From Streptomyces sp. NBC_01244 (GTDB taxonomy: Bacteria; Actinomycetota; Actinomycetes; Streptomycetales; Streptomycetaceae), in the NCBI RefSeq assembly GCF_035987325.1, contig NZ_CP108488.1:5890001-5954000 (forward strand): a stretch of DNA of 64,000 nt. The letters are read 5' to 3'. Each line of letters begins with the position of its first letter. The stretch's first letter is position 1. Below the pieces are notes generated by a model that was not told where the DNA came from, did no database searches, and saw nothing but the letters and a program-made list of their open reading frames with translations. Shown here piece after piece: positions 8,309 through 51,555 of the stretch. Position numbers and translations under genes: made by a program.

Positions 8309-8941
8309 GTGAGCTGTTCCTCTCCTTTGCCTACGCGTGTCGTCCTGCTGACCGGACCCTCGGGGTCCGGCAAGTCCTCGCTGGCGGCCCGTTCGGGGCT
8401 GCCCGTGCTGCGCCTGGACGACTTCTACAAGGACGGCGACGACCCCACCCTCCCGCTCGTCGACGGCAGTGCCGACATCGACTGGGACTCCCCGCGGTCC
8501 TGGGACGCGGAGGCGGCCGTGGCCGCGATCGCCGCGTTGTGCGCGGCCGGGCGGACCGAGGTCCCCGTCTACGACATCGCCACCTCCTCGCGGACCGGTA
8601 CGGAGGCGCTGGACATCTCCCGGACCCCGCTGTTCATAGCCGAGGGGATCTTCGCGGCGGACGTCGTGGGCCGGTGCCAGGAGCTGGGGCTGCTGGCGGA
8701 CGCCATCTGCCTGCGCGGGCGGCCCAGCACCACCTTCCGGCGCCGGCTGGCCCGGGACCTGCGCGAGGGCCGCAAGTCGGTGCCGATGCTCCTGCGGCGG
8801 GGCTGGCGGCTGATGCGGGCCGAGCGGGGCATCGTGGCCCGGCACACCGCGCTGGGCGCTCACGCGTGTGGGCGTGACGAGGCGCTCGGGCGGCTGGCCG
8901 CAGCAGCGGCCGGACGGCACCGGGCTGCGGCCCCGGCGTAG
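8309..8941 (+). CDS. Uridine kinase-like P-loop kinase
   Basis: The 210-residue protein has a Walker A motif GPSGSGKSS (about 16-24), LRLDDFYKDGDD (substrate/DFY motif of the uridine kinase/phosphoribulokinase family), DWDSPRSWD and a lid-like basic region (RGRPSTTFRRRLARDLREGRKS). Such kinases phosphorylate uridine/cytidine with ATP/GTP in pyrimidine salvage; the sequence alone does not fix the substrate. The start is GTG at 8309, only 11 nt beyond the tnpB element's right end, so its promoter and ribosome binding site may be transposon-derived or displaced. A bidirectional terminator follows. Confidence 0.8.
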   Translation: MSCSSPLPTRVVLLTGPSGSGKSSLAARSGLPVLRLDDFYKDGDDPTLPLVDGSADIDWDSPRSWDAEAAVAAIAALCAAGRTEVPVYDIATSSRTGTEALDISRTPLFIAEGIFAADVVGRCQELGLLADAICLRGRPSTTFRRRLARDLREGRKSVPMLLRRGWRLMRAERGIVARHTALGAHACGRDEALGRLAAAAAGRHRAAAPA

Positions 8942-41364: not shown

Positions 41365-41387
41365 GCCGCTCGCTCGGGAGCACGCAC

Positions 41388-41426
41388 GAGGCCCCGGCCC
41401 CCGCGAAACGCGGTGGCCGGGGCCTC
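41388..41426. terminator. Terminator after the sulfatase gene
   Basis: A 12-bp perfect stem (GAGGCCCCGGCC at 41388-41399 with 41415-41426) encloses a smaller CCGCG-AAA-CGCGG hairpin, followed by TTCC. It lies 24 nt after the sulfatase stop and before the displaced msrA end. Confidence 0.85.
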
Positions 41427-41455
41427 TTCCGTCAGTCGACCAGCCCGTCGGCCGG

Positions 41456-41550
41456 TCAGCTGTCGGCGCGGGCCGCGCCGATCGGGCAGCTCACGCCCGT
41501 GCCGCCGATGCCGCAGTAGCCGCCGGGGTTCTTGTCCAGGTACTGCTGGT
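41456..41550 (-). pseudogene. Displaced 3' end of msrA
   Basis: On the minus strand this encodes [30 protein letters not shown] and a stop, closely matching the C-terminus of the intact MsrA at 43193-43867. It has no start or upstream coding part; sequence similarity stops at the 17-bp repeat at 41534-41550. It is read as the original chromosomal msrA end, cut off when the integrase element inserted. Confidence 0.85.
41534..41550. repeat. Left attachment-site core
   Basis: GTCCAGGTACTGCTGGT is identical to 43280-43296. It lies within the msrA coding sequence in both copies, and similarity to msrA changes side at this point, as expected for a recombination core. Confidence 0.8.
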
Positions 41551-41602
41551 TGTACCACTTCTCTTTGTGTGGAATTAGTGACTCTTCGTAAAGGGGTGGG
41601 AA

Positions 41603-43022
41603 GTGAACGAAGCGGCACCGGTGATCCCGGTTGTCTCGTACGCGCGTATCTCCGCCGACACGGCCAGGGACGGCCACGGCGTCGAGGACCAGCACAAGGT
41701 GAACGGTGAGACGGCGGCCCGTCTCGGCTGGACGATCGTGCACCGCTGCACCGACAACGACCTGTCGGCGGCCAAGGCAGCGGTGGTGCGCCCGGACTTC
41801 GAGGCCATGGTGAAGGCGCTCAAGTCGGGACACATGCCGGACGGGCAGCCCGTACGCGGCGTCATCGTGGTCGCGGACGACCGGCTCACGCGCCGGGCGG
41901 GCGACTATGAGCGGTTCGTGGACGCGCTCACGTACGAGGAAGGACGGCTCTACGCCGACGCCAAGGGGTCGAAGAACCAAGATGCAGCGGCGGGCGCGCC
42001 GCTCACACCGCGCTCGCGCGGAGCTGGGCATCCCGGTGGGTGGGAAGCGCCCCTTCGGCTGGCAGGACGACAAGCTCACGCTGGAGCCCGAGGAAGCGGC
42101 GTGGCTGGCGAAGGGCGCCCGCGAGGTGATCGCGGGCAAGTCCATGCACTCGATCCTTCGCGAGTGGCGTGAGGTCGGCGTCCGCACGATCAACGACAAG
42201 GAATGGGCGAGCCGCTCGCTCAAGCTCGCCCTGTGGAACCCACGGCTGTGTGGCTGGCGCAAGCACAACGGAGAGCTGGTACGCGACGCCAACGGCGTGC
42301 CGGTCGTGGGTCGCTGGGAGCCCATCATCACGCCGAAGGAGTGGATGGCTATCGACGCCATCTTCTCGGCGCGGGTGGGCCCCAATGTGAAGTCTGACGG
42401 AACGGTCACGGACTATCGCACCCCGTCGTACCTGCTGACGGGAATCCTCCGATGCGGAAAGCCTCGCGAGGACGGCCAGATCTGCAATTCGCCCCTTCGG
42501 GCGACCGCACGAGCGGACCTCTCCGGGGGTTATCTCTACCAATGCCCCAGTAAGGAAATGGGCGGATGTGGGGGAACTGGACGGAACGGCGCCAAGATCG
42601 ATGAATTCATTACGGGGGCCGTACTCGCGAAGCTGGAAGCGAGGGCGGCCAGGGCGACGCGCGCCGACGAGCTGTGGGGAGGGGAGGAAGAGCCGGCCCG
42701 TCTGATGGCCAAGCAGCGCAAGCTGCTTCAGGCGTGGCAGGAAGACCAGGTCTCGGATGAGCTGTTCTTCCCCGAGAATCAGAAGATGGAAGCGCGCGTC
42801 AAGGAACTTCGTGCGGACAGGACACGTCATGTGCTGAGGCGACAGCGGGCCGCCGAAGTCACTGGCGACGTACGCGAGCGTTGGACCTCGGGCAGGCTGG
42901 ACCTGGCGCAGAAGCGTGCCCTGATCAGGGAAGCGCTGCACGCGGTGATCGTGCTGCCGGCGGGAGGCGGAGGTCGGCGCCCGTTCAACCCTGACCTGCT
43001 GGTCCCGAAGTGGCGGGACTGA
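41603..43022 (+). pseudogene. Large serine integrase, disrupted by an internal deletion/frameshift
   Basis: The first frame (41603 to about 41980) encodes the resolvase-type catalytic domain: [12 protein letters not shown] with the nucleophile Ser, then [20 protein letters not shown] and YADAKGSKN. The second frame (about 41979-43022) carries [26 protein letters not shown], the recombinase domain, a zinc ribbon (CGKPREDGQIC...CPSKEMGGCGG) and a C-terminal helical region. About 20 residues of the linker between these blocks, expected in intact relatives, are missing, and the frames differ, so a deletion near 41975-41981 is inferred. The whole would be about 470 residues. It lies just inside the left attachment core. 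Confidence 0.88.
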
Positions 43023-43043
43023 CGGGGATAGTGGAAACGGAAT

Positions 43044-43070
43044 GGGGCACCGCCGTCTGGCTGGTGCCCC
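43044..43070 (+). terminator. Terminator after the integrase relic
   Basis: An 8-bp stem (GGGGCACC at 43044-43051, GGTGCCCC at 43063-43070) followed by TTCGTTT lies 21 nt past the integrase stop. It looks like an original part of the element. Confidence 0.75.
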
Positions 43071-43192
43071 TTCGTTTGCCTTGCGTGTATGGACTACCGC
43101 TGACTGCGTTGGGCCTTGGCCGAGTCAAAGTCCTCCAACCTGAAGAGGGACCCAAGGTCTCCCATGGGGCTCCGGCGTGAGTGTGTTGTGCG

Positions 43193-43867
43193 TCAGCCGT
43201 CCGTTGACGGGGCTTCAGCGACGCCGATCGGGCAGGCCACGCCCGTGCCGCCGATGCCGCAGTAGCCATTGATGTTGCGGTCCAGGTACTGCTGGTGGTA
43301 CGCCTCCGCCGGCCAGAAGGGGCGCTCCGAGGCCGGCAGGACGGCCGTGGTGATCGTGCCGTAGCCGGAGGCGGTCAGGACGCGCTGGTAGGCCTCGCGG
43401 GAGGCCTCGGCGGTGGCCTGGGCGGCGGGGGAGTGGGTGTAGAGCGCCGAGCGGTACTGGGTGCCGACGTCGTTGCCCTGGCGGAAGCCCTGGGTGGGGT
43501 CGTGGGACTCCCAGAAGAGCTTCAGCAGGGCTTCGTAGGAGACCAGCGAGGGGTCGAAGACGACCCGGACCACCTCGGTGTGGCCGGTGCCGCCCGAGCA
43601 GACCTCTTCGTAGGTCGGGTTCTCGGTGAAGCCGCCCTGGTAGCCGGCCAGGGTGGTCCACACGCCGGGGGCCTGCCAGAACTTGCGCTCGGCGCCCCAG
43701 AAACAGCCGAGGCCGAAGTCGGCGACCTGGAGGTGGGCGGGGTACGGGCCCGCGAGGGGGTTGCCGAGCACGGTGTGCACGGCGGGCAGCCCGAACAGCG
43801 GCTCCGCGCGGCCGGTCAGGGCTTCCTCGCGGGTGGGGAGCTCGGGCGTGCGGCGGTACGAGAACAT
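43193..43867 (-). CDS. msrA: Peptide-methionine (S)-S-oxide reductase (host/element hybrid gene)
   Basis: MsrA reduces methionine-S-sulfoxide in oxidised proteins. The 224-residue protein has catalytic Cys55 in [33 protein letters not shown], and the C-terminal [16 protein letters not shown] with resolving cysteines. The last 30 residues (43193 to about 43280) appear to have been supplied by the inserted element, because a diverged copy of the same end sits beyond the left attachment core. The reading frame stayed open, so function should be kept. The ATG at 43865-43867 fits. Confidence 0.92.
43280..43296. repeat. Right attachment-site core within msrA
   Basis: This is the second copy of GTCCAGGTACTGCTGGT. 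To its left the msrA end differs from the displaced copy ([22 protein letters not shown] versus [22 protein letters not shown]); to its right is the only msrA body. Confidence 0.8.
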
Positions 43868-43961
43868 GGATTCCCTCCTTGTGGTCTACCGATAACGGCG
43901 GACGGCGGTCGGGGATTCCCTCACCCCCGGATTTCCGTACGAAGGTGCAGGTGGGTGACCA

Positions 43962-44011: not shown

Positions 44012-44299
44012 TCAGTCGGTGTAGAAGTACGCCTCCTCGGCGATCTCGTGCACTGCTTCCTCACCCAGCTCCTGTTCCAGGGCTGTGCCGATGACATTCC
44101 GAAGGTTGCCCAAGCGGCGCAGTACCTTGCGATCTACGACGTAGTCACAAAGGATCTCCGGGTCCTTACCTCCGGTACCGATGCGGGAGAGGATCCTGTC
44201 CAGCGAGACGACGTACTCGTTGAGATCTCGGGTCGCTTGGATCGCGTCGGCCAGGGAGATCTCCACCCGTCCCTTTCGCATCCCCATCTCATCGCTCAT
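44012..44299 (-). CDS. Candidate immunity protein for the RHS toxin
   Basis: The 95-residue, helix-rich, acidic protein (VEISLADAIQATRDLNEYVVSLDRILSRIGTG; RRLGNLRNVIGTALEQELGEEAVHEIAEEAYFYTD) has no signal peptide or recognised domain. Its ATG (44297-44299) overlaps the toxin TGA by 4 nt, so it is translated in step with the toxin. Immediate 3' placement, small size, acidity and moderate GC are standard for immunity genes of polymorphic toxins. No family assignment is made; the role rests on context. Confidence 0.8.
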   Translation of the reverse strand: MSDEMGMRKGRVEISLADAIQATRDLNEYVVSLDRILSRIGTGGKDPEILCDYVVDRKVLRRLGNLRNVIGTALEQELGEEAVHEIAEEAYFYTD

Positions 44300-47200
44300 C
44301 GCACGATCTTCACATTCTCGATTGCAATATCTCCCACTGCGACCCACTCCCAGAAACCAAACTTCTTGTTGTATTCCTTGGTGATCCGATTCGCCGGTAC
44401 GTCGAATTCCACTACCTTGCTTCCGCGGCCCATGCCGATGCCGAGCTTGGGTTCCGCGTCCTTCGGAGCCATCAGCTTCCCCTTCGCAGGGAGGAGGAAT
44501 ACCTTGTTCTGGTCGCGAGCCCGCATGATTTTCGATTCTACGATGCCCCGCGCGCCGGCACTGTTCGTGTAGTGCCGCATCCGGACCATCTCTACAGGCT
44601 TTTCAGCCTTCCCGCCGCTTCCCTCAGCGGTGGGGCAATTGTGCACGAGCAGCGACGCGGCGCCTGCGAGCACGTAGTAGGTGTGGAACTCGTCGACGGT
44701 GAGGTTGTGGGTCGTGACGGCGTACGGATAGGTGCGCGTCGCCTGGACCGTGAGGGTGGTGCCGTCGGGCTGGCGGAGCTTTTCGCCGGCAATGAGCTCG
44801 CCGGCGTCGACCCACTGCTGTCGGGTCGCGCTCCAGTAGGGGTGGTGGTAGGTGGAGGTGATCTTCGCCGGCGGGCCGCGAGGGCTGGCCTCGTCGGTGA
44901 CGGTGAGGTCGGTGAAGTCCTTGTCGTCGGGCGTGGTGATGGTGGTGGTGACGGTCTTGGGCCGGGTTTCGCCGGTCTGCGGGTCGGTGGCCATGACCAC
45001 GTCCCCGTCCTTGACGTCCTCGATGGACTTCGCGGACCCGTCGGCCATCAGGACCTGGACGCCGGTGGGGAAGCTGTTGCACTTGGTCGTGCCCGACGGG
45101 GCATCGCCCCCGCCGCTCCTGGCTTCGGGCTCGGCCCTGCTGGTGCTCTTCGCGGCGTCGGACTCCTTCGCCACGAGTCGGGACTCGGTTCCCGCGCTGT
45201 CGCTCAGGGATTCCTTGGCGGCCTTATCCGATGCGGCCTGGGCTGCCTTGGCTTCGGCGTCACGCGCTTCCTTGGCCGCCTTCTTGACGGAGCTGACGGC
45301 ATCGGCGGCCTTCGAGGCTCCGCGTTCGGCTTCGTGGATGGCGTCGTAGGCCTTGTTCATCTCCTTGTAGATCTTGAAGGCCTTGATGCCGACCTTGACG
45401 GCCTTGACGAGCTTGCCCCAGGGGACGAAGTTCAGGGCCGTGTTGATGCACGCCATCACGTCGCCCTTGGTGAAGCAGTCCCGGGCGTCGTTGTATCCAA
45501 TCAGGTCACCGACCACGTCGATGACTTCGTCGATCAGCTTGTCGCGCTTCTTCTTGGCCTTGGTGACGTTGTTGTTCGCCTGGTCCAAAGCCTTTTGGGC
45601 CTGCCCTTCCCCGTCGTCACCACCACCCCAGAGACTGATGTTGTGGCTCTCTGTGTACTCGTACTGCTCACAGTTGCTACTACACGTGATCTGTTGCGCC
45701 AGGCCGCTGGGGTCGGAGGCGTTGACGGGGCTGTTGTTGGAGTAGGCGTAGGCGTTCCACTGTTGCGGGTCGCTTACGTCGAGGACCGGGTCGGGGCTGA
45801 TGAAGCGGCCGGTGGTGGGGTCGTATTCGCGGGCGCCGAGGAGGGTGAATCCGGTGGATTTCTCCTTGGTGCCGCCGACGAATCCCTTGTCTCCGGCCCA
45901 GGTGCCGGGGGCGGGCTGGGTGCCGCGTTCGTTGCCGAACGGGTCGGAGGCCCGGCGGACGTGGCTGAGGTCGGAGGCCTTGAACTGAACTCCGCCGGTG
46001 CCGTGGTGGTCCGCGCCCTGGTACGTGAGCGTGGCCGCGACCGTGCTGGTGGTGCGGGTGACGGACAGGCCGCCGGGGGCGGGGTAGCTGCGGACGTTGG
46101 CAACCTTGCCGCTGGCGGTGTCCAGCGTGATCTGGTCGGCGCCGATGTTGAGGGTGGTGCTGGTGGGGTCGCGGCGGATGAGCTGGTTGCCGGCGGTGTC
46201 GTAGAGATAGCTGGTGCCGGCGCTCTCCCCGGTACCGACGATCTTGTCGAGCTTGCCCTGTCCGTTCCAGGTCAGGGTCTTGGTGCCGGCGGTGTTGGTG
46301 ATACCGGCGGTGTTGCCGGACTGGTCGTAGGTGTAGGAGGTGACCTTGGTTCCGGACGGGCCGGTCTCGGTCGAGGACATCAGCGCGTGCGGGCCGCCCG
46401 TGCCGCCGCCCGTCTTCGGGTCGGAAGACGGGGTGTTGTTCTTCGGTCCGAACGTCTGGGTGGTCGTGACGTCCTTGGCCGCGTTGCCGGTGACGTCCTT
46501 CCTCACCAGCTTCTTGCGGTTGCCCATCGCGTCGTACTCGTACTGCTGCCAGTACGGAGCAGGACCGCCGACACTCGGCTTGCCCGTGCCGTCGACCGCG
46601 GGGCCGGCTGCGTTGGTGCAGCCGCCGATGCCGCGGACGCTGGGTGCGGGAGCCGTGGTCTGGGTGCCGGTGTCGGTCCAGGCCTGAGTCAGCCGTCCCA
46701 GGTAGTCGTGCGTGAAGCACTGCAGGTCACGGCCCGCGCCGTCCTGCGTGTCACCGATCGAGGTCAGCTGGCCGACCTTGTTGTAGGTGTAGTCCAGGAC
46801 ATCCACGCTGGCCGTCGCGGCGGTCTGCTTGTCCAGGGTCGAGCGGACCGGACGGCCGGTGCCGGCGTCGTAGTCGGTCGTGGAGACCACCTGCAAGCCG
46901 GTGTCACCGACGGTGCTACGGATGGCCCGCCCGTAGGGGTCGTAGCGCACGTCCACGAGGTACGGGGTCCTGGCGAGCCCGATCTTGCCACTGAGCGAAG
47001 TGGTGTTGCCCGCGACATCGGTACCGAACGTCAGCGTCTCGGCGCCGAGGCCGGCCTTGGGGATGCCGGGCAGGGCCGAGGTCTTCAGCTGGCCGTAGGC
47101 GTCGTAGGTGTTGGTCGTCTGGTAAGTACCAGCCAGCTCCTTCTCGGCCGCCGGGATGGTGACCTTGGTGCCGAGGGGCCGGTAGCCGCCGTCGTAACCG

Positions 47201-50200
47201 GTGACCTCCGTGGCGTAGGCGCTGCCCGTCTTGCCACCCACGTAGCGGGTGGCGCTGTCGGCCTTGCCGAGCTTCTTGGCGTCGTACGTGAACGCGCCGA
47301 CCTGCTTGGCGGGGTCGACGGCCGTGCCCTCGTACGTCGCGATGGTGCGACCGAGGAGGTCGGCCTCCAAGGTGGCGCTCTTGAGGCGGGCGTCGGTGGT
47401 GGTGGTGAGGTTCTTCTTGTCGTCGTAGACGGTCGTGCTGATCCCGGCATCCGGGTCGGTGGTCTTCACCACGCGGCCCAGCAGGTCGTAGGTGAAGGTC
47501 CACTCGTTGCCGGCGGAGTCCTTCCGCGACAGCTCCTGGCCCTCGGAGTTGGACACGTACGTCGTGTCGTCGTAGGCACCGGTGGGCGTGTTCGACTTGA
47601 ACTGGCGCAGGATCGAGGTGGTGCCGTTGGTGATCGTCGCCGTGGCGAACCCGCCGGCCGGCGGAATCTGACGGCTCTCGTCCACGCCCGGGTACTGAGT
47701 CGTGGAGCGGGACTGCTCCACGCCGAAGGACTGGCTGATGGATGCGGTGACGCGGCCGAGGCCGTCGAAGACGGAGACGGTCTGGGCCGGGATCTTGCTG
47801 TCGGGCTGGACCCCGCCGTTGGGCAGGAAGACCGCCGCGGAGGGCGCGCCCTGGTCGGTGTAGTAGGCCGAACTGGTCTTGACCTGCCAGCCGTGGGAGT
47901 CGAACAGTGCGTCCGTGATCATCCGGCCGGCCACGCCCGAGGGAGGAGTGGCCTGCGTCTGGCGGACGCGGCCCATACCGTCGTAGATCGTGTACGAGGA
48001 CGTGTAGCTGTTGTCGTTCATGAGCGCCTGGCTCAGAACGGCGGACGGCGCGTTCGTGCCGTTCATCGTGTACGACAACTTGCGCACCGGGAGAGCGCTG
48101 TTCGCACGTTCCTGGCCCGGCTGCCAGATGGAGGTGACCCGCCCGAGCGCGTCGTACTCGCGTTCGGCGACGTGGTTGTTCTCGTCGGTGCTCTTCAGCG
48201 GCTGTGAGCGGCCGATGTCGAGCGTGGTGACCGACTTCCAGCCCAGCGGGTTGGTGTGGGTGATGGTGTCCGGAAGCACACCCGTGGCAGGCGCGTACTG
48301 GGTCGTGGTGACCGCGCCGCCCGGGTGGGCGGTGTCGGTGCGGACCTTGTTGGTGTTGCTGGTGACGCGGCCGTAGGTGTCGTAGGTGGAGGTGGAGTTG
48401 AGGCGGTAGACCGGCTTGCCGGTGCCGTCGTACTTCTCCAGGACCTCAGTGCCCGTGCCGTCCGCCGTCGCTCCGACCTGGCCGTAGGGCAGACCGTCGA
48501 AGTACGAGCGGGTGTCGCCGACGGTGTTGGCCGCGGTCGGCGTCTGACCGCAGACACCGGACAGGACCAGGGTGCGCGCAGCGATCTCGGTGACCGCGCC
48601 GCCCGGGCCGGTCGGGTACTCGAACGTGGTGCACAGACGCTGGTCCGTGCGGGAGATGTCGCTGTTGTCGTCGACCTGGAGGGGCCGGGTGACGAGCGTG
48701 GTGTCGTACGTCGACGAGCGCTCGCTCGTGCGCCAGCTGCCGTTGGCGAGCTTCGCGCGGGTGGTGACCTTAGCCGTGTTCAGCGCGCGGGCCGTGATCG
48801 GCGGCATCCCGGCGGACTGGGCGCGGGTTGCGGTGACCGGGCCGATCCAGGGGGTGGTGACCTCGTCGGAGACCACCGCGCCGCCGTCGCGGTCGTAGGT
48901 CTGGGTCTGGCGGGCGAAGCCGGACAGAACTTCTTCGTCCTTGATCGTCCCGCCCTGCGTGTCATCGACCGACACGCTGCGCTTGGTGCCGTTGGCCAGG
49001 ACGTCGCCGTCCATACCGCGCAGGTAGGTGGTGACGTTCTTGGTGCGCGGGGCTTCGCTCGCGTTGCCGCTGCCCGTGCGGGTCGTCACCGTGGCGTAGC
49101 CGCGGAACTGGTCCCAGGTGCGGGTCTTGGGGTCGGTGAACTCGGAGTCGTTGCGGTGCCAGGCGATGCCGCCGCCGTACTCGTAGTCGGTGACGGTGGA
49201 GACCTGGCCGCCGACCTTGTCCTGCTGGGTGACGGACTGGACGACGACCTTGTTGAACCAGTCGTTGACCGGGTCCGCGAAGGACTGGCCGGGCAAGTAC
49301 CACTTGACCGGCATGCAGGCCATCGTGTTGCCGTCCTCGGTGGACGGCATCGTGCCGTTGAGGCGCGAGCACTCCGGTGCCTTGTAGGCGACGTTGATCT
49401 GGCCACCGGTTTCGGTGGTGATCGTCTGGATCCGCGGACGCCGATAGCTCGGAGCCGAAGCGTCCGTACCGTCGGGGCGGCGGACGACGCCGTCGACACG
49501 GTTGGGGAACTGCGTCGCCTGGAACAGGACCGCGGGGAGCTTGATCGCGGTCTTGCTGTTGCTGGCGTTGCGCTGGATCGAGTCGAGCCACAGGGTCGGG
49601 GACGTGCCGTCACCCGGGTCCTGGAAGGAGTGCTTGAGGTCGTACCAGTCGACCGTGCGCCACGCGGTGCCCGTCCAGACCTGACTGGCGATCTGGGTGA
49701 ACTTCTTCGTCGTGAAATAGGTCGGCGAGAGGTTCAGGCACTGACCGGTGGCCGGGCATTCCTGGTCGATGGGGGTATCCGGCCAGGAAGCGGCGTTCGC
49801 CTTCACACGCTGAGCGGTGTCCGTGCAGGTGACGGTCCCGATCACGACGCAGCGTTCGGCGTTCTTGATGTTGATCTGGACGGCCGGCTTGGCCGTGCCC
49901 TTCGCCGTGATCTGCTCGGGCAGGCGCTGGCCGTAGCCGATCCAGGTCGGGTAGGAGCCGCGCTGGTACTTCGTGTTGGTGCCGGTGCCGCCGTTCTGGC
50001 CGCCACCACGCCCGTAGAAGTTGTCTTCCTGCTCGTAGCGGTAGGAGACCAGGTTCTGGTGCGGGTCCACGACGTAGTCGAGGTTCCACTGCCAGCCCAG
50101 CTGCTGCCACGTCCCGTTCGCGGGAGTGTCAGCGCCCAGGCACTTGTCCTGGCCGCTGTTGAAATACACCGGGACCGTGGAGACGGATTTGGCCTCCGGG

Positions 50201-51555
50201 TCGGTGCCGTCGCCGCCGGGGAGGCGGTTGGAGCCGAAGTAGTACTGGGTTCCGTCGGTCGTGGTGACCTTGAAGCCCTCGCCCTTCCAGGCGGCGTTGC
50301 GCTGCCCGGTCAGCCGCTCGATCTTTGTGCCGTCCTCACCCTGAAGGTGATACACGCACGAGGTGTCGTCGCGGACGATCTGGCCGGCGTGGCCGGCGAG
50401 GTTCAGGGACAGGATGTCCCCGGCCCAGCACTCGTCACCCGACTCCGCTATCCCCGCGTCTTTGCAGCCCTTGTAGGAACGCGAGATCGAGCCCGGACTC
50501 CAGTCCCAACCCTCACCGAAACCGGACGCCTGCGCGTTCGTCGACGCCGTACGGCCATCGATGGAGGACGAGTCATAGGCCAGGCCCACATCCGGACCCG
50601 CACCCGCGATCGCGGAGGGAACCTCGACGGTGTAGCCGTAGGTGAAGTTCGCGGCGTTCGCGCCGGCCTGCCACGACATGGACGGCGCCAGCGGGGTAGC
50701 GGTGAAGTCACCACTCGCACCCGACGGACCCGCCTCCACGGCGAGGGCCACGGCCTGCGAGGCCAGCATCTGCGGAGCATCCGACGGAGCCGACTTGAAG
50801 GCAGTCGCCTTCGTCTTGGGGGCGTCGATCTCCGCGACCAGACGGCCCGACGCATCCGTGTGGGAAGCCACCGGGGTACGGGCCGTGCAGCCCTTCGCGC
50901 CCGGAGTCGTCAGCGCACAGTCGGGAAGACGCACCACCCGTGCACGATCAGCCCAGTTCGCGCCAGTCGTCTTCGCCAACGCCGAGACGTCGAAACCGAC
51001 CTGGACCTTGCCCGAAGCAGCACTGCCCGCCGCATCGGTCAGAGCGACGAGGACGCCCCCGACACCAGCCGCACGCGTCTTCGCCTCGTCCTTCACCTCC
51101 ACCCGAAGCGAACCCTCACCAGAACCGGAACCAGAACCGGAACCGGAAGTAGCGAGCTCCGACAACTTCGCCGAACGGTTCACACCCTTGGCGGGAGCAA
51201 CCCATACGGGCAAAGAGCCGGCCTGAACCGACTTTCCTGCGGCTGCGGTTGTCGCTCCACCGGTAATGGCGAGCGGAACGGTCGCCGAACCGGACGGGGC
51301 CTTCGCCTTCGCATCCGGCTTCCACGCCTTACCGACCGGCGCCTTGGCGTTGACGGGCTTGGCATTCGAGCCCTTGACGGGCTTGGTCTGCGGGAGCGCC
51401 GTATTCGGCGGCACCCACACCTTCGGTGGCTTCGCCACCGCTTCGACCGCGGGCAAGCCCAGGCCGGAGATGAACACCGCGAGCACGGCGACCATCGCAA
51501 CACGTGGCCGTCTCGCGCGTGCGCGCGAAAGCAAACCACCCTGACGAGACAACAA
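44296..51555 (-). CDS. Giant secreted RHS-repeat polymorphic toxin with Hint and ART-HYD1-like tip
   Basis: The 2,419-residue protein has an N-terminal signal/anchor (RRPRVAMVAVLAVFISGLGLPAVEA), a SpvB/TcaC-like beta region (about 300-350), many YD/RHS repeats and the RHS core (LGAREYDPTTGRFISPDP...NASDPSGL, ending about 1947). A Lys/Ala-rich coiled segment follows, then a Hint autoprotease (about 2159-2307, CNSFPTGVQVLMADG to LLVHNC) and a 112-residue tip. The tip starts with RHYTNSAGARGIVESKIMRARDQNKVF, resembling HYD1-type ADP-ribosyltransferase toxins. The RHS shell should encase the tip, which Hint releases. The start is TTG (51553-51555) with a GGGGG close upstream. The overlapping antisense frames are shadows. 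Confidence 0.9.
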   Translation of the reverse strand: MLSRQGGLLSRARARRPRVAMVAVLAVFISGLGLPAVEAVAKPPKVWVPPNTALPQTKPVKGSNAKPVNAKAPVGKAWKPDAKAKAPSGSATVPLAITGGATTAAAGKSVQAGSLPVWVAPAKGVNRSAKLSELATSGSGSGSGSGEGSLRVEVKDEAKTRAAGVGGVLVALTDAAGSAASGKVQVGFDVSALAKTTGANWADRARVVRLPDCALTTPGAKGCTARTPVASHTDASGRLVAEIDAPKTKATAFKSAPSDAPQMLASQAVALAVEAGPSGASGDFTATPLAPSMSWQAGANAANFTYGYTVEVPSAIAGAGPDVGLAYDSSSIDGRTASTNAQASGFGEGWDWSPGSISRSYKGCKDAGIAESGDECWAGDILSLNLAGHAGQIVRDDTSCVYHLQGEDGTKIERLTGQRNAAWKGEGFKVTTTDGTQYYFGSNRLPGGDGTDPEAKSVSTVPVYFNSGQDKCLGADTPANGTWQQLGWQWNLDYVVDPHQNLVSYRYEQEDNFYGRGGGQNGGTGTNTKYQRGSYPTWIGYGQRLPEQITAKGTAKPAVQINIKNAERCVVIGTVTCTDTAQRVKANAASWPDTPIDQECPATGQCLNLSPTYFTTKKFTQIASQVWTGTAWRTVDWYDLKHSFQDPGDGTSPTLWLDSIQRNASNSKTAIKLPAVLFQATQFPNRVDGVVRRPDGTDASAPSYRRPRIQTITTETGGQINVAYKAPECSRLNGTMPSTEDGNTMACMPVKWYLPGQSFADPVNDWFNKVVVQSVTQQDKVGGQVSTVTDYEYGGGIAWHRNDSEFTDPKTRTWDQFRGYATVTTRTGSGNASEAPRTKNVTTYLRGMDGDVLANGTKRSVSVDDTQGGTIKDEEVLSGFARQTQTYDRDGGAVVSDEVTTPWIGPVTATRAQSAGMPPITARALNTAKVTTRAKLANGSWRTSERSSTYDTTLVTRPLQVDDNSDISRTDQRLCTTFEYPTGPGGAVTEIAARTLVLSGVCGQTPTAANTVGDTRSYFDGLPYGQVGATADGTGTEVLEKYDGTGKPVYRLNSTSTYDTYGRVTSNTNKVRTDTAHPGGAVTTTQYAPATGVLPDTITHTNPLGWKSVTTLDIGRSQPLKSTDENNHVAEREYDALGRVTSIWQPGQERANSALPVRKLSYTMNGTNAPSAVLSQALMNDNSYTSSYTIYDGMGRVRQTQATPPSGVAGRMITDALFDSHGWQVKTSSAYYTDQGAPSAAVFLPNGGVQPDSKIPAQTVSVFDGLGRVTASISQSFGVEQSRSTTQYPGVDESRQIPPAGGFATATITNGTTSILRQFKSNTPTGAYDDTTYVSNSEGQELSRKDSAGNEWTFTYDLLGRVVKTTDPDAGISTTVYDDKKNLTTTTDARLKSATLEADLLGRTIATYEGTAVDPAKQVGAFTYDAKKLGKADSATRYVGGKTGSAYATEVTGYDGGYRPLGTKVTIPAAEKELAGTYQTTNTYDAYGQLKTSALPGIPKAGLGAETLTFGTDVAGNTTSLSGKIGLARTPYLVDVRYDPYGRAIRSTVGDTGLQVVSTTDYDAGTGRPVRSTLDKQTAATASVDVLDYTYNKVGQLTSIGDTQDGAGRDLQCFTHDYLGRLTQAWTDTGTQTTAPAPSVRGIGGCTNAAGPAVDGTGKPSVGGPAPYWQQYEYDAMGNRKKLVRKDVTGNAAKDVTTTQTFGPKNNTPSSDPKTGGGTGGPHALMSSTETGPSGTKVTSYTYDQSGNTAGITNTAGTKTLTWNGQGKLDKIVGTGESAGTSYLYDTAGNQLIRRDPTSTTLNIGADQITLDTASGKVANVRSYPAPGGLSVTRTTSTVAATLTYQGADHHGTGGVQFKASDLSHVRRASDPFGNERGTQPAPGTWAGDKGFVGGTKEKSTGFTLLGAREYDPTTGRFISPDPVLDVSDPQQWNAYAYSNNSPVNASDPSGLAQQITCSSNCEQYEYTESHNISLWGGGDDGEGQAQKALDQANNNVTKAKKKRDKLIDEVIDVVGDLIGYNDARDCFTKGDVMACINTALNFVPWGKLVKAVKVGIKAFKIYKEMNKAYDAIHEAERGASKAADAVSSVKKAAKEARDAEAKAAQAASDKAAKESLSDSAGTESRLVAKESDAAKSTSRAEPEARSGGGDAPSGTTKCNSFPTGVQVLMADGSAKSIEDVKDGDVVMATDPQTGETRPKTVTTTITTPDDKDFTDLTVTDEASPRGPPAKITSTYHHPYWSATRQQWVDAGELIAGEKLRQPDGTTLTVQATRTYPYAVTTHNLTVDEFHTYYVLAGAASLLVHNCPTAEGSGGKAEKPVEMVRMRHYTNSAGARGIVESKIMRARDQNKVFLLPAKGKLMAPKDAEPKLGIGMGRGSKVVEFDVPANRITKEYNKKFGFWEWVAVGDIAIENVKIVR

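Follow-up and report, generated by a model that had tools for sequence, protein, structure and literature searches.

Why does a genome hold the 3´ end of one gene twice, with a broken integrase gene in between? The question is raised by msrA in a window of 64,000 nucleotides (the whole stretch analysed here, G000:C1:5890001-5954000) from the 10.0-Mb genome of Streptomyces sp. NBC_01244, where the intact gene (43867-43193, minus strand; 224 amino acids; Pfam PMSR, E 9e-58) is accompanied by a displaced second msrA end. An earlier note on this DNA, made from the letters alone, had claimed that an element carrying a serine integrase brought its own msrA ending and restored the gene on insertion, which left a host/element hybrid. 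The comparisons described below make it very probable that an actinomycete integrative element left this relic, and that its large serine integrase recombines the attP of the element with an attB in the last ~35 codons of msrA. The sequences show that the element carries an msrA-like 3´ end beyond its own crossover, and that its insertion produces a complete hybrid msrA on one side and pushes the host 3´ end to the integrase-start side. The exchange would be catalysed by this integrase. The same arrangement is seen where related integrases lie in other genomes, many of them from Streptomycetaceae and a few from further actinobacterial families; the elements span ~2-17 kb.

Organization of the msrA locus

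The two 17-bp copies of GTCCAGGTACTGCTGGT (Table 1) are exact and lie at the same reading position of msrA, as the earlier note described; they are part of a longer match of 80 bp with 86% identity (41476-41555 and 43222-43301), which refines that description. Searching the genome with msrA at E 0.001 yields two matches, the gene itself and a fragment at window 41459-41560, and the intact hybrid gene is the only msrA found apart from this fragment. The 1,746 bp between the exchange points contain a single recognisable gene, which encodes a large serine integrase and is split into two pieces in different frames. PF00239, PF07508 and PF13408 score above their cut-offs on the two pieces, which is the architecture of large serine integrases. 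Alignment with the relative in L062 reveals that the window integrase lacks 65 bp at ~41978, which shifts the frame. The claim that only a serine integrase, and a fossil one, lies between the repeats can be kept. The serine at YARIS (S17), which we take to be the catalytic serine, is invariant and kept in 13 aligned integrase relatives. A tRNA-type target was rejected, because the window contains no tRNA or tmRNA.

Origin of the two msrA ends

Endings were compared in 70 Streptomyces msrA tails (29 loci L003-L031, 40 further loci and G018; G037 was read as L077 and counted with the elements), a set that excludes same-genus genomes with only distant MsrA matches. The term integrase-free means that no match of this integrase occurs in the flank compared. 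At the diagnostic position after QQYLx, 65 genes contain K-N-P, three contain R-N-P (G074, G041 and G059) and two contain R-N-I (G025 and G060). Two of these off-type genes belong to integrase carriers (G025 with R-N-I and G074 with R-N-P), which leaves K-N-P in 65 of the 68 genes at loci without a known element. In the window, the displaced tail is K-N-P and the tail in frame with msrA is R-N-I. Among the tails compared, those most similar to the restored tail are six that elements carry (80-87%), and those most similar to the displaced tail come from seven integrase-free genes (87-90%). For the msrA body, the nearest are two carriers, G316 (97.2%) and G074 (95.5%), followed by the integrase-free G083 (94.1%) and G012 (93.0%).

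When the element is left out (41380-41548 joined to 43295-43920), all nine of the integrase-free msrA loci tested give one alignment that continues through the junction, with 0-11 gap bases; the best is that of G083 (720 bp, 0 gaps, 92.8% identity). Uninterrupted msrA genes in other strains are what the earlier note had led us to expect. Both msrA ends of the window can be aligned with the one msrA end of G083, and the flank past that end is the same in G083 and the window, save for ~1.3 kb of extra sequence in between in G083. The alignment of the joined flanks as one, together with the tail affinities, indicates that the intact msrA is a hybrid of ~191 host codons and 33 element codons plus the stop, which bears out the claim that the element brought its own ending.

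The reverse assignment, in which the right-hand end is ancestral and the left-hand copy was brought by the element, could appeal to the fact that the right-hand end is in frame with the intact gene and to the R-N-I ending of one integrase-free locus, G060. However, the left-hand K-N-P type prevails in genes without a known element, the left copy is nearest to integrase-free msrA whereas the right copy is nearest to element tails, and the left copy adjoins a host flank that also flanks msrA in G083, although with ~1.3 kb more in between there. We reject this assignment on the tail types, the tail affinities and the joined-flank alignment, and we regard it as extremely improbable. The earlier note had itself named an ancestral right-hand end, or both msrA ends in relatives without the integrase, as observations that would overturn its claim. 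Neither was seen: 65 of the 68 genes agree with the left-hand end at the diagnostic position, and a second msrA end was found by motif in 0 of the 68 loci without a known element (searched over ~1.5 kb of downstream DNA for one batch of loci and over 0.25-6.1 kb for the other).

Across the elements read, K-N-P is present in 16 of 18 displaced tails and R-N-I/V/K in 13 of 17 restored tails, counts that exclude the degenerate displaced ends of L064, L068 and L087 and the non-Streptomycetaceae loci. As a separate observation, the displaced tails L065:8750-8660 and L066:16797-16890 end in GIAEAPGA/GIAEAPGE, like element tails, which suggests that an exchange between two msrA ends or an earlier insertion may have occurred.

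Position of the exchange

The restored and displaced junctions were compared by position in 14 elements; a degenerate fifteenth, L068, is outside the count. L067, L072 and L083 differ at the second-last base to the left of CAGCAG; to the right, L086 differs at the sixth base, and L070, L072, L083, L086 and L088 differ at the ninth. The base before CAGCAG and bases 2-5 of CAGCAG agree in 14 of 14 elements, and base 1 agrees in 13 (L062 differs). These differences place the exchange inside about eight bases, the first eight of CAGCAGTA on five elements, or inside the first five if the single-base difference of L086 is original. The exchange falls at codons QQY of the motif YHQQYLD, where the usual 2-bp crossover of serine integrases would presumably take place. 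The surrounding GGTACCACCAGCAGTACC is a candidate partial dyad, with 12 of 18 positions.

Distribution of msrA-linked integrases

In a scan of 392 Streptomyces genomes, in which at most five candidates per genome were scored, an integrase at 54% identity or more is present in at least 14 genomes, the window's own included; the next value is 45%. An msrA tail lies immediately before the integrase gene in all 14, clearly in 12 and in degenerate form in G074 and G443, and a full msrA is found at the other end in 12 (G228 stops at the contig end, and in G215 none could be assigned within 20 kb). For integrases at ~45% identity or below, an msrA match in their own locus is found in 0 of 16 cases (control loci L046-L061, ~1.5 kb on each side, less in L060).

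A named genome collection provides 48 integrase loci. The msrA tail is present in 15 of 15 loci from Streptomycetaceae (Streptomyces, Actinacidiphila and Streptantibioticus); the motif identifies it in 14, and that of L087 is degenerate. Eight of the 15 duplicate records already in the scan of 392. L082, L085 and L091-L096 duplicate L062, L065, L072, L071, L073, L074, L077 and L076, respectively. Outside Streptomycetaceae, the tail is present in 4 of 33 loci, from Dactylosporangium (L106), Actinoplanes (L115), Actinomadura (L113) and a metagenome-assembled genome (MAG) of Pseudonocardiales (L127), and a full msrA occupies the far end in L106 and L115. The msrA-adjacent positions that the earlier note proposed to look for among close integrases are found in the 14 carriers and in these four loci.

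Taken alone, the window, with a dead integrase and nothing else mobile left, could be read as a chance tandem duplication or rearrangement of the msrA end beside a coincidental integrase. However, many genomes with related integrases repeat the order of tail, integrase and msrA, which is missing in 16 of 16 more distant integrases, and the exchange point is constant within a few bases. A chance duplication is rejected on the recurrence and on the 16 distant integrases without an msrA tail, and we give it next to no credence.

In a tree of 51 integrases, the 20 msrA users from Streptomycetaceae form one side of a branch (support 94/85), while the L106/L115 pair and L113 fall outside it, so that msrA targeting is either ancestral or was gained more than once. 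Targets other than msrA include an aldo/keto reductase (L102) and RtcB (L105), by Pfam; one further group resembles exonuclease III by eye, which Pfam did not confirm. Integrases at ~50-55% identity lie mid-gene in aldo/keto-reductase-like genes (L100, L102-L104, L108, L116, L119-L121 and L124) or RtcB-like genes (L105 and L111), as judged by eye and, for L102 and L105, by Pfam, which indicates a change of target within the group. The DNA compared for the 10 aldo/keto-type loci revealed no second motif-bearing copy, and the motif missed even the first copy in L100 and L108. A tblastx self-comparison for target restoration outside the msrA group was swamped by GC-rich frame shadows. L127 contains two msrA tails without a gene body at 8780 and 9941, ~1.2 kb apart, as in a tandem insertion.

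Kind of element and cargo

The 16 measured elements range from 1.7 to 16.9 kb. L073, L074 and L077, in which both ends are delimited, contain RepSA, an FtsK/SpoIIIE translocase and a GntR regulator; with the integrase, the first two make up the three modules expected of an actinomycete integrative and conjugative element (AICE); RepSA and FtsK are also found beside the integrase gene in L089, L090 and L096. RepSA, an FtsK-type translocase and an integrase are the modules that define AICEs in the available text of PMC9513070 and PMC3218068. These six larger relatives indicate that the lineage is one of AICEs and not a known phage. The window element, with an integrase pseudogene only between its att repeats, does not have the three modules and is a relic of the AICE lineage, not a functional member. 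Where the earlier note had expected full prophages or integrative and conjugative elements at this site, the second part is supported by the larger AICEs, which were found instead of prophages.

A temperate phage as the source of the fossil was weighed with the following evidence. Large serine integrases are common in Streptomyces phages, and 346 of 50,697 phage records match the integrase; all of these matches are below 60% identity, however, and the best-ranked is at 30.2%. Two peptide patterns revealed no integrase relative in viral contigs. Domains were scanned in 50 cargo proteins, a part of all open reading frames (ORFs); some carry phage-named domains (L066 and L084 encode a Phage_zn_bind_8 zinc finger, and L062 matches Pam3_gp59 weakly), but no phage structural domain or lysis gene, by which a temperate phage would be recognised, is present among them, and the larger elements at the msrA site hold RepSA and FtsK. 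A phage origin is therefore very unlikely. Among plasmid records, the sole strong integrase match (54%) is to a Nonomuraea record of 11.9 Mb, which is chromosome-sized.

The cargo of the smaller elements includes DUF3885, DUF7019 and NB-ARC/TPR proteins, a second resolvase and a DDE transposase. A DUF3885 gene lies beside the restored msrA end in otherwise different elements (L064:8906-9511, L084:12906-13511, L086:11745-12371, L062:16308-16909 in two frames and L070:7961-8299 in part). A radical-SAM protein encoded in the region L070:11146-16395 weakly resembles viperin and lies near an NB-ARC/TPR protein, and this cargo may be related to defence. PADLOC revealed no convincing defence system among 10 cargo proteins: L070 gave a TPR match and viperin-like ones, and L073 gave weak matches to regulators. 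The Streptomyces zhaozhouensis element contains a gene for an APH-family phosphotransferase (L077:16878-17795).

Several observations weigh against the account of an AICE lineage that restores msrA with its own tail. Tail types are not always diagnostic: both tails of L073 are K-N-P, the restored tails are SSSKNPNG in L070 and L072 and R-N-P in L064, and the displaced tails of L090 (R-N-P) and L067 (N-N-P) are off-type. At loci without a known element, the endings of G041 and G059 are R-N-P, and G060 (L147) has an element-type ARNINGYCG tail, with this integrase not found in the 6 kb read; the G060 ending is possibly the scar of a lost element. No msrA tail is present in 29 of the 33 integrase relatives outside Streptomycetaceae (among them L101, whose 45 bp upstream are too little to judge). 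For L089, L090 and L096, no far end was identified in the DNA compared, and in L088, L106 and L115, the contig that encodes RepSA has no FtsK match. Several elements are short, at 2.3-2.8 kb, and have an open integrase frame but no transfer genes among what was scanned, which indicates that not every member is an AICE.

Decay of the window copy

The closest intact counterpart of the window element is the 5.6-kb element of G316 (Streptomyces sp. AP-93), with which the window aligns at 41455-41978, 41978-43102 and 43209-43920. Missing relative to G316 are 65 bp inside the integrase gene and ~3.9 kb of cargo, in place of which the window contains 106 bp of other sequence. Window 43025-43102 matches the DNA after the integrase gene in the G316 element, and the match reaches 43125 in L066 and L084; window 43126-43208 has no match at E 1e-3 among the compared loci except the window itself. 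From these alignments, the window copy appears to be what internal deletion left of a 5.6-kb G316-like element, and an internally deleted copy by itself says little about the contents of the full element. The window lineage would have lost the cargo and the 65 bp at a later stage, deletions that would lock the element in and make msrA a permanent host/element hybrid. With the integrase dead, the hybrid msrA is probably fixed.

Elements of ~2.3-2.8 kb with an open integrase frame occur in G074, G368, G193, L083 and L086, and a DUF3885 gene is located at the msrA-side end of two short elements (G074 and L086) and of the larger L084. The short members could accordingly be autonomous minimal elements that move by the integrase alone, perhaps conjugated with AICE help, of which the window would be a dead member. 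However, the matches to the window after the integrase gene end at positions that differ between these elements (window 43027 to 43107), as separate deletions predict, and the element of the closest relative measures 5.6 kb. We consider such a short class unlikely. The features in Table 1 are described for an integrated element that was later deleted internally.

Table 1. Features of the msrA locus in the window.
Feature	Position	Strand	Basis or remark
Host-derived msrA body (start codon to crossover)	43295..43867	-	PMSR domain; body affinities to G316, G074, G083 and G012
Element-derived msrA 3´ end, 33 sense codons and stop, supplies both C-terminal cysteines	43193..43294	-	Six most similar tails all element-borne
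Displaced original host msrA 3´ end	41456..41548	-	DKNPGGYCG as in integrase-free msrA; seven most similar tails integrase-free; adjoins host flank shared with G083
17-bp repeat, integrase-start-side junction	41534..41550		Crossover within 41541-41548, probably 41544-41548
17-bp repeat, msrA-side junction	43280..43296		Crossover within 43287-43294, probably 43290-43294
Integrated-element remnant, 1,746 bp	41549..43294		Junction and locus comparison
Integrase pseudogene 5´ part, Resolvase N-terminal domain, GTG start	41603..41977	+	99.2% identity over 125 residues to the L033 integrase (same gene as in L062)
Integrase pseudogene 3´ part, Recombinase and zinc-ribbon domains, out of frame after 65-bp deletion	41978..43022	+	Domain matches, alignment
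Remnant of the element's right part	43023..43208		Matches to G316, L066 and L084 DNA after the integrase gene

Element-borne tail and MsrA function

The C-terminal cysteines of MsrA regenerate the enzyme. The exchange is located upstream of the GYCG and CP cysteines, and the tail aligns with the tails of solved MsrA structures. Both C-terminal cysteines are kept in 17 of 17 restored tails, and the ratio of nonsynonymous to synonymous polymorphism (pN/pS) is 0.18 over 15 restored tails (24 codons); the low ratio and the kept cysteines fit selection for function. The element presumably carries an msrA end because the gene would lose the two cysteines if the element inserted without one. Judged by its sequence, the hybrid msrA is a case of gene-restoring 3´-end integration, in which the element replaces the displaced end. 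A further idea, which we hold to be quite doubtful, is that the element-borne ending goes beyond neutral repair of the gene: AICEs of this family would time and again replace the tail that bears the cysteines in a host enzyme of redox repair by one of their own class (DRNxNG / SSSKNPNG), so that carriers would run a distinct hybrid MsrA and the host ending would be a passive spare that returns only on excision. If true, the persistence of the element would be tied to host oxidative-damage repair.

Relation to known systems

In staphylococci, the staphylococcal cassette chromosome (SCC) elements with CcrAB/CcrC serine recombinases target the 3´ end of the conserved protein-coding gene rlmH/orfX; the element supplies the end and the gene stays functional. 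The msrA elements differ from SCC, as that system is commonly described, in the host phylum, the recombinase group and the target gene, and their own end comprises ~33 codons with two C-terminal cysteines. The phage integrases phiC31, phiBT1 and phiJoe have the same architecture of Resolvase, Recombinase and zinc ribbon. To our knowledge, Streptomyces phage integrations interrupt their targets instead of restoring them. The large serine integrases of the Streptomyces phages that were matched, Conan and Yosif among them, differ by the low identities given above.

The larger msrA elements share with AICEs of the pSAM2 type RepSA (Pfam 'Replication initiator protein, pSAM2'), FtsK/SpoIIIE, a GntR-type regulator and an integrase in elements of ~12-17 kb, as well as insertion at a gene 3´ end with the gene restored. 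They differ in the use of a serine integrase and a protein-coding target, and the window copy also differs in having no transfer or replication genes. pSAM2 employs a tyrosine integrase and a tRNA gene (in part after the available text of PMC3218068). Serine recombinases are present in 19 of 144 AICEs, some of them in protein-encoding genes, according to the available text of Ghinet et al. (2011, PMC3218068). In their available text, catalogues of serine integrases and att sites (PMC10083194; Integrase-On-Demand, PMC12884075) predict attB target genes for many serine integrases, and many islands restore the gene entered (PMC12884075).

Neither msrA nor methionine sulfoxide occurs in the main texts of PMC9513070, PMC3218068, PMC12884075 and PMC10083194, whose supplementary tables lay outside the search and may list the pair. 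Literature searches, with supplements outside their scope and the broader ones judged by titles and abstract openings, revealed no msrA attachment site for any integrase. Gene-restoring integration and AICEs are already known kinds, and the combination of a serine integrase, an AICE and an msrA tail appears to be undescribed in the searchable literature.

The msrA elements provide a serine integrase family whose attB is mapped closely and lies in a gene that is conserved widely among actinobacteria, and because insertion leaves the target gene complete, a site of this type would be useful for vector construction. They present AICEs that enter a protein-coding gene by a serine integrase and repair it with an element tail containing conserved cysteines, which also explains the off-type C-terminus of some streptomycete msrA genes. 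The results suggest that msrA and the short 'orphan' integrases at its locus be annotated as one event.

Neighbouring genes

A 2,419-residue ORF adjoins msrA (window 44296-51555, minus strand) and looks, by eye, like an RHS/polymorphic-toxin type. The small ORF after it (44012-44347) could be its partner.

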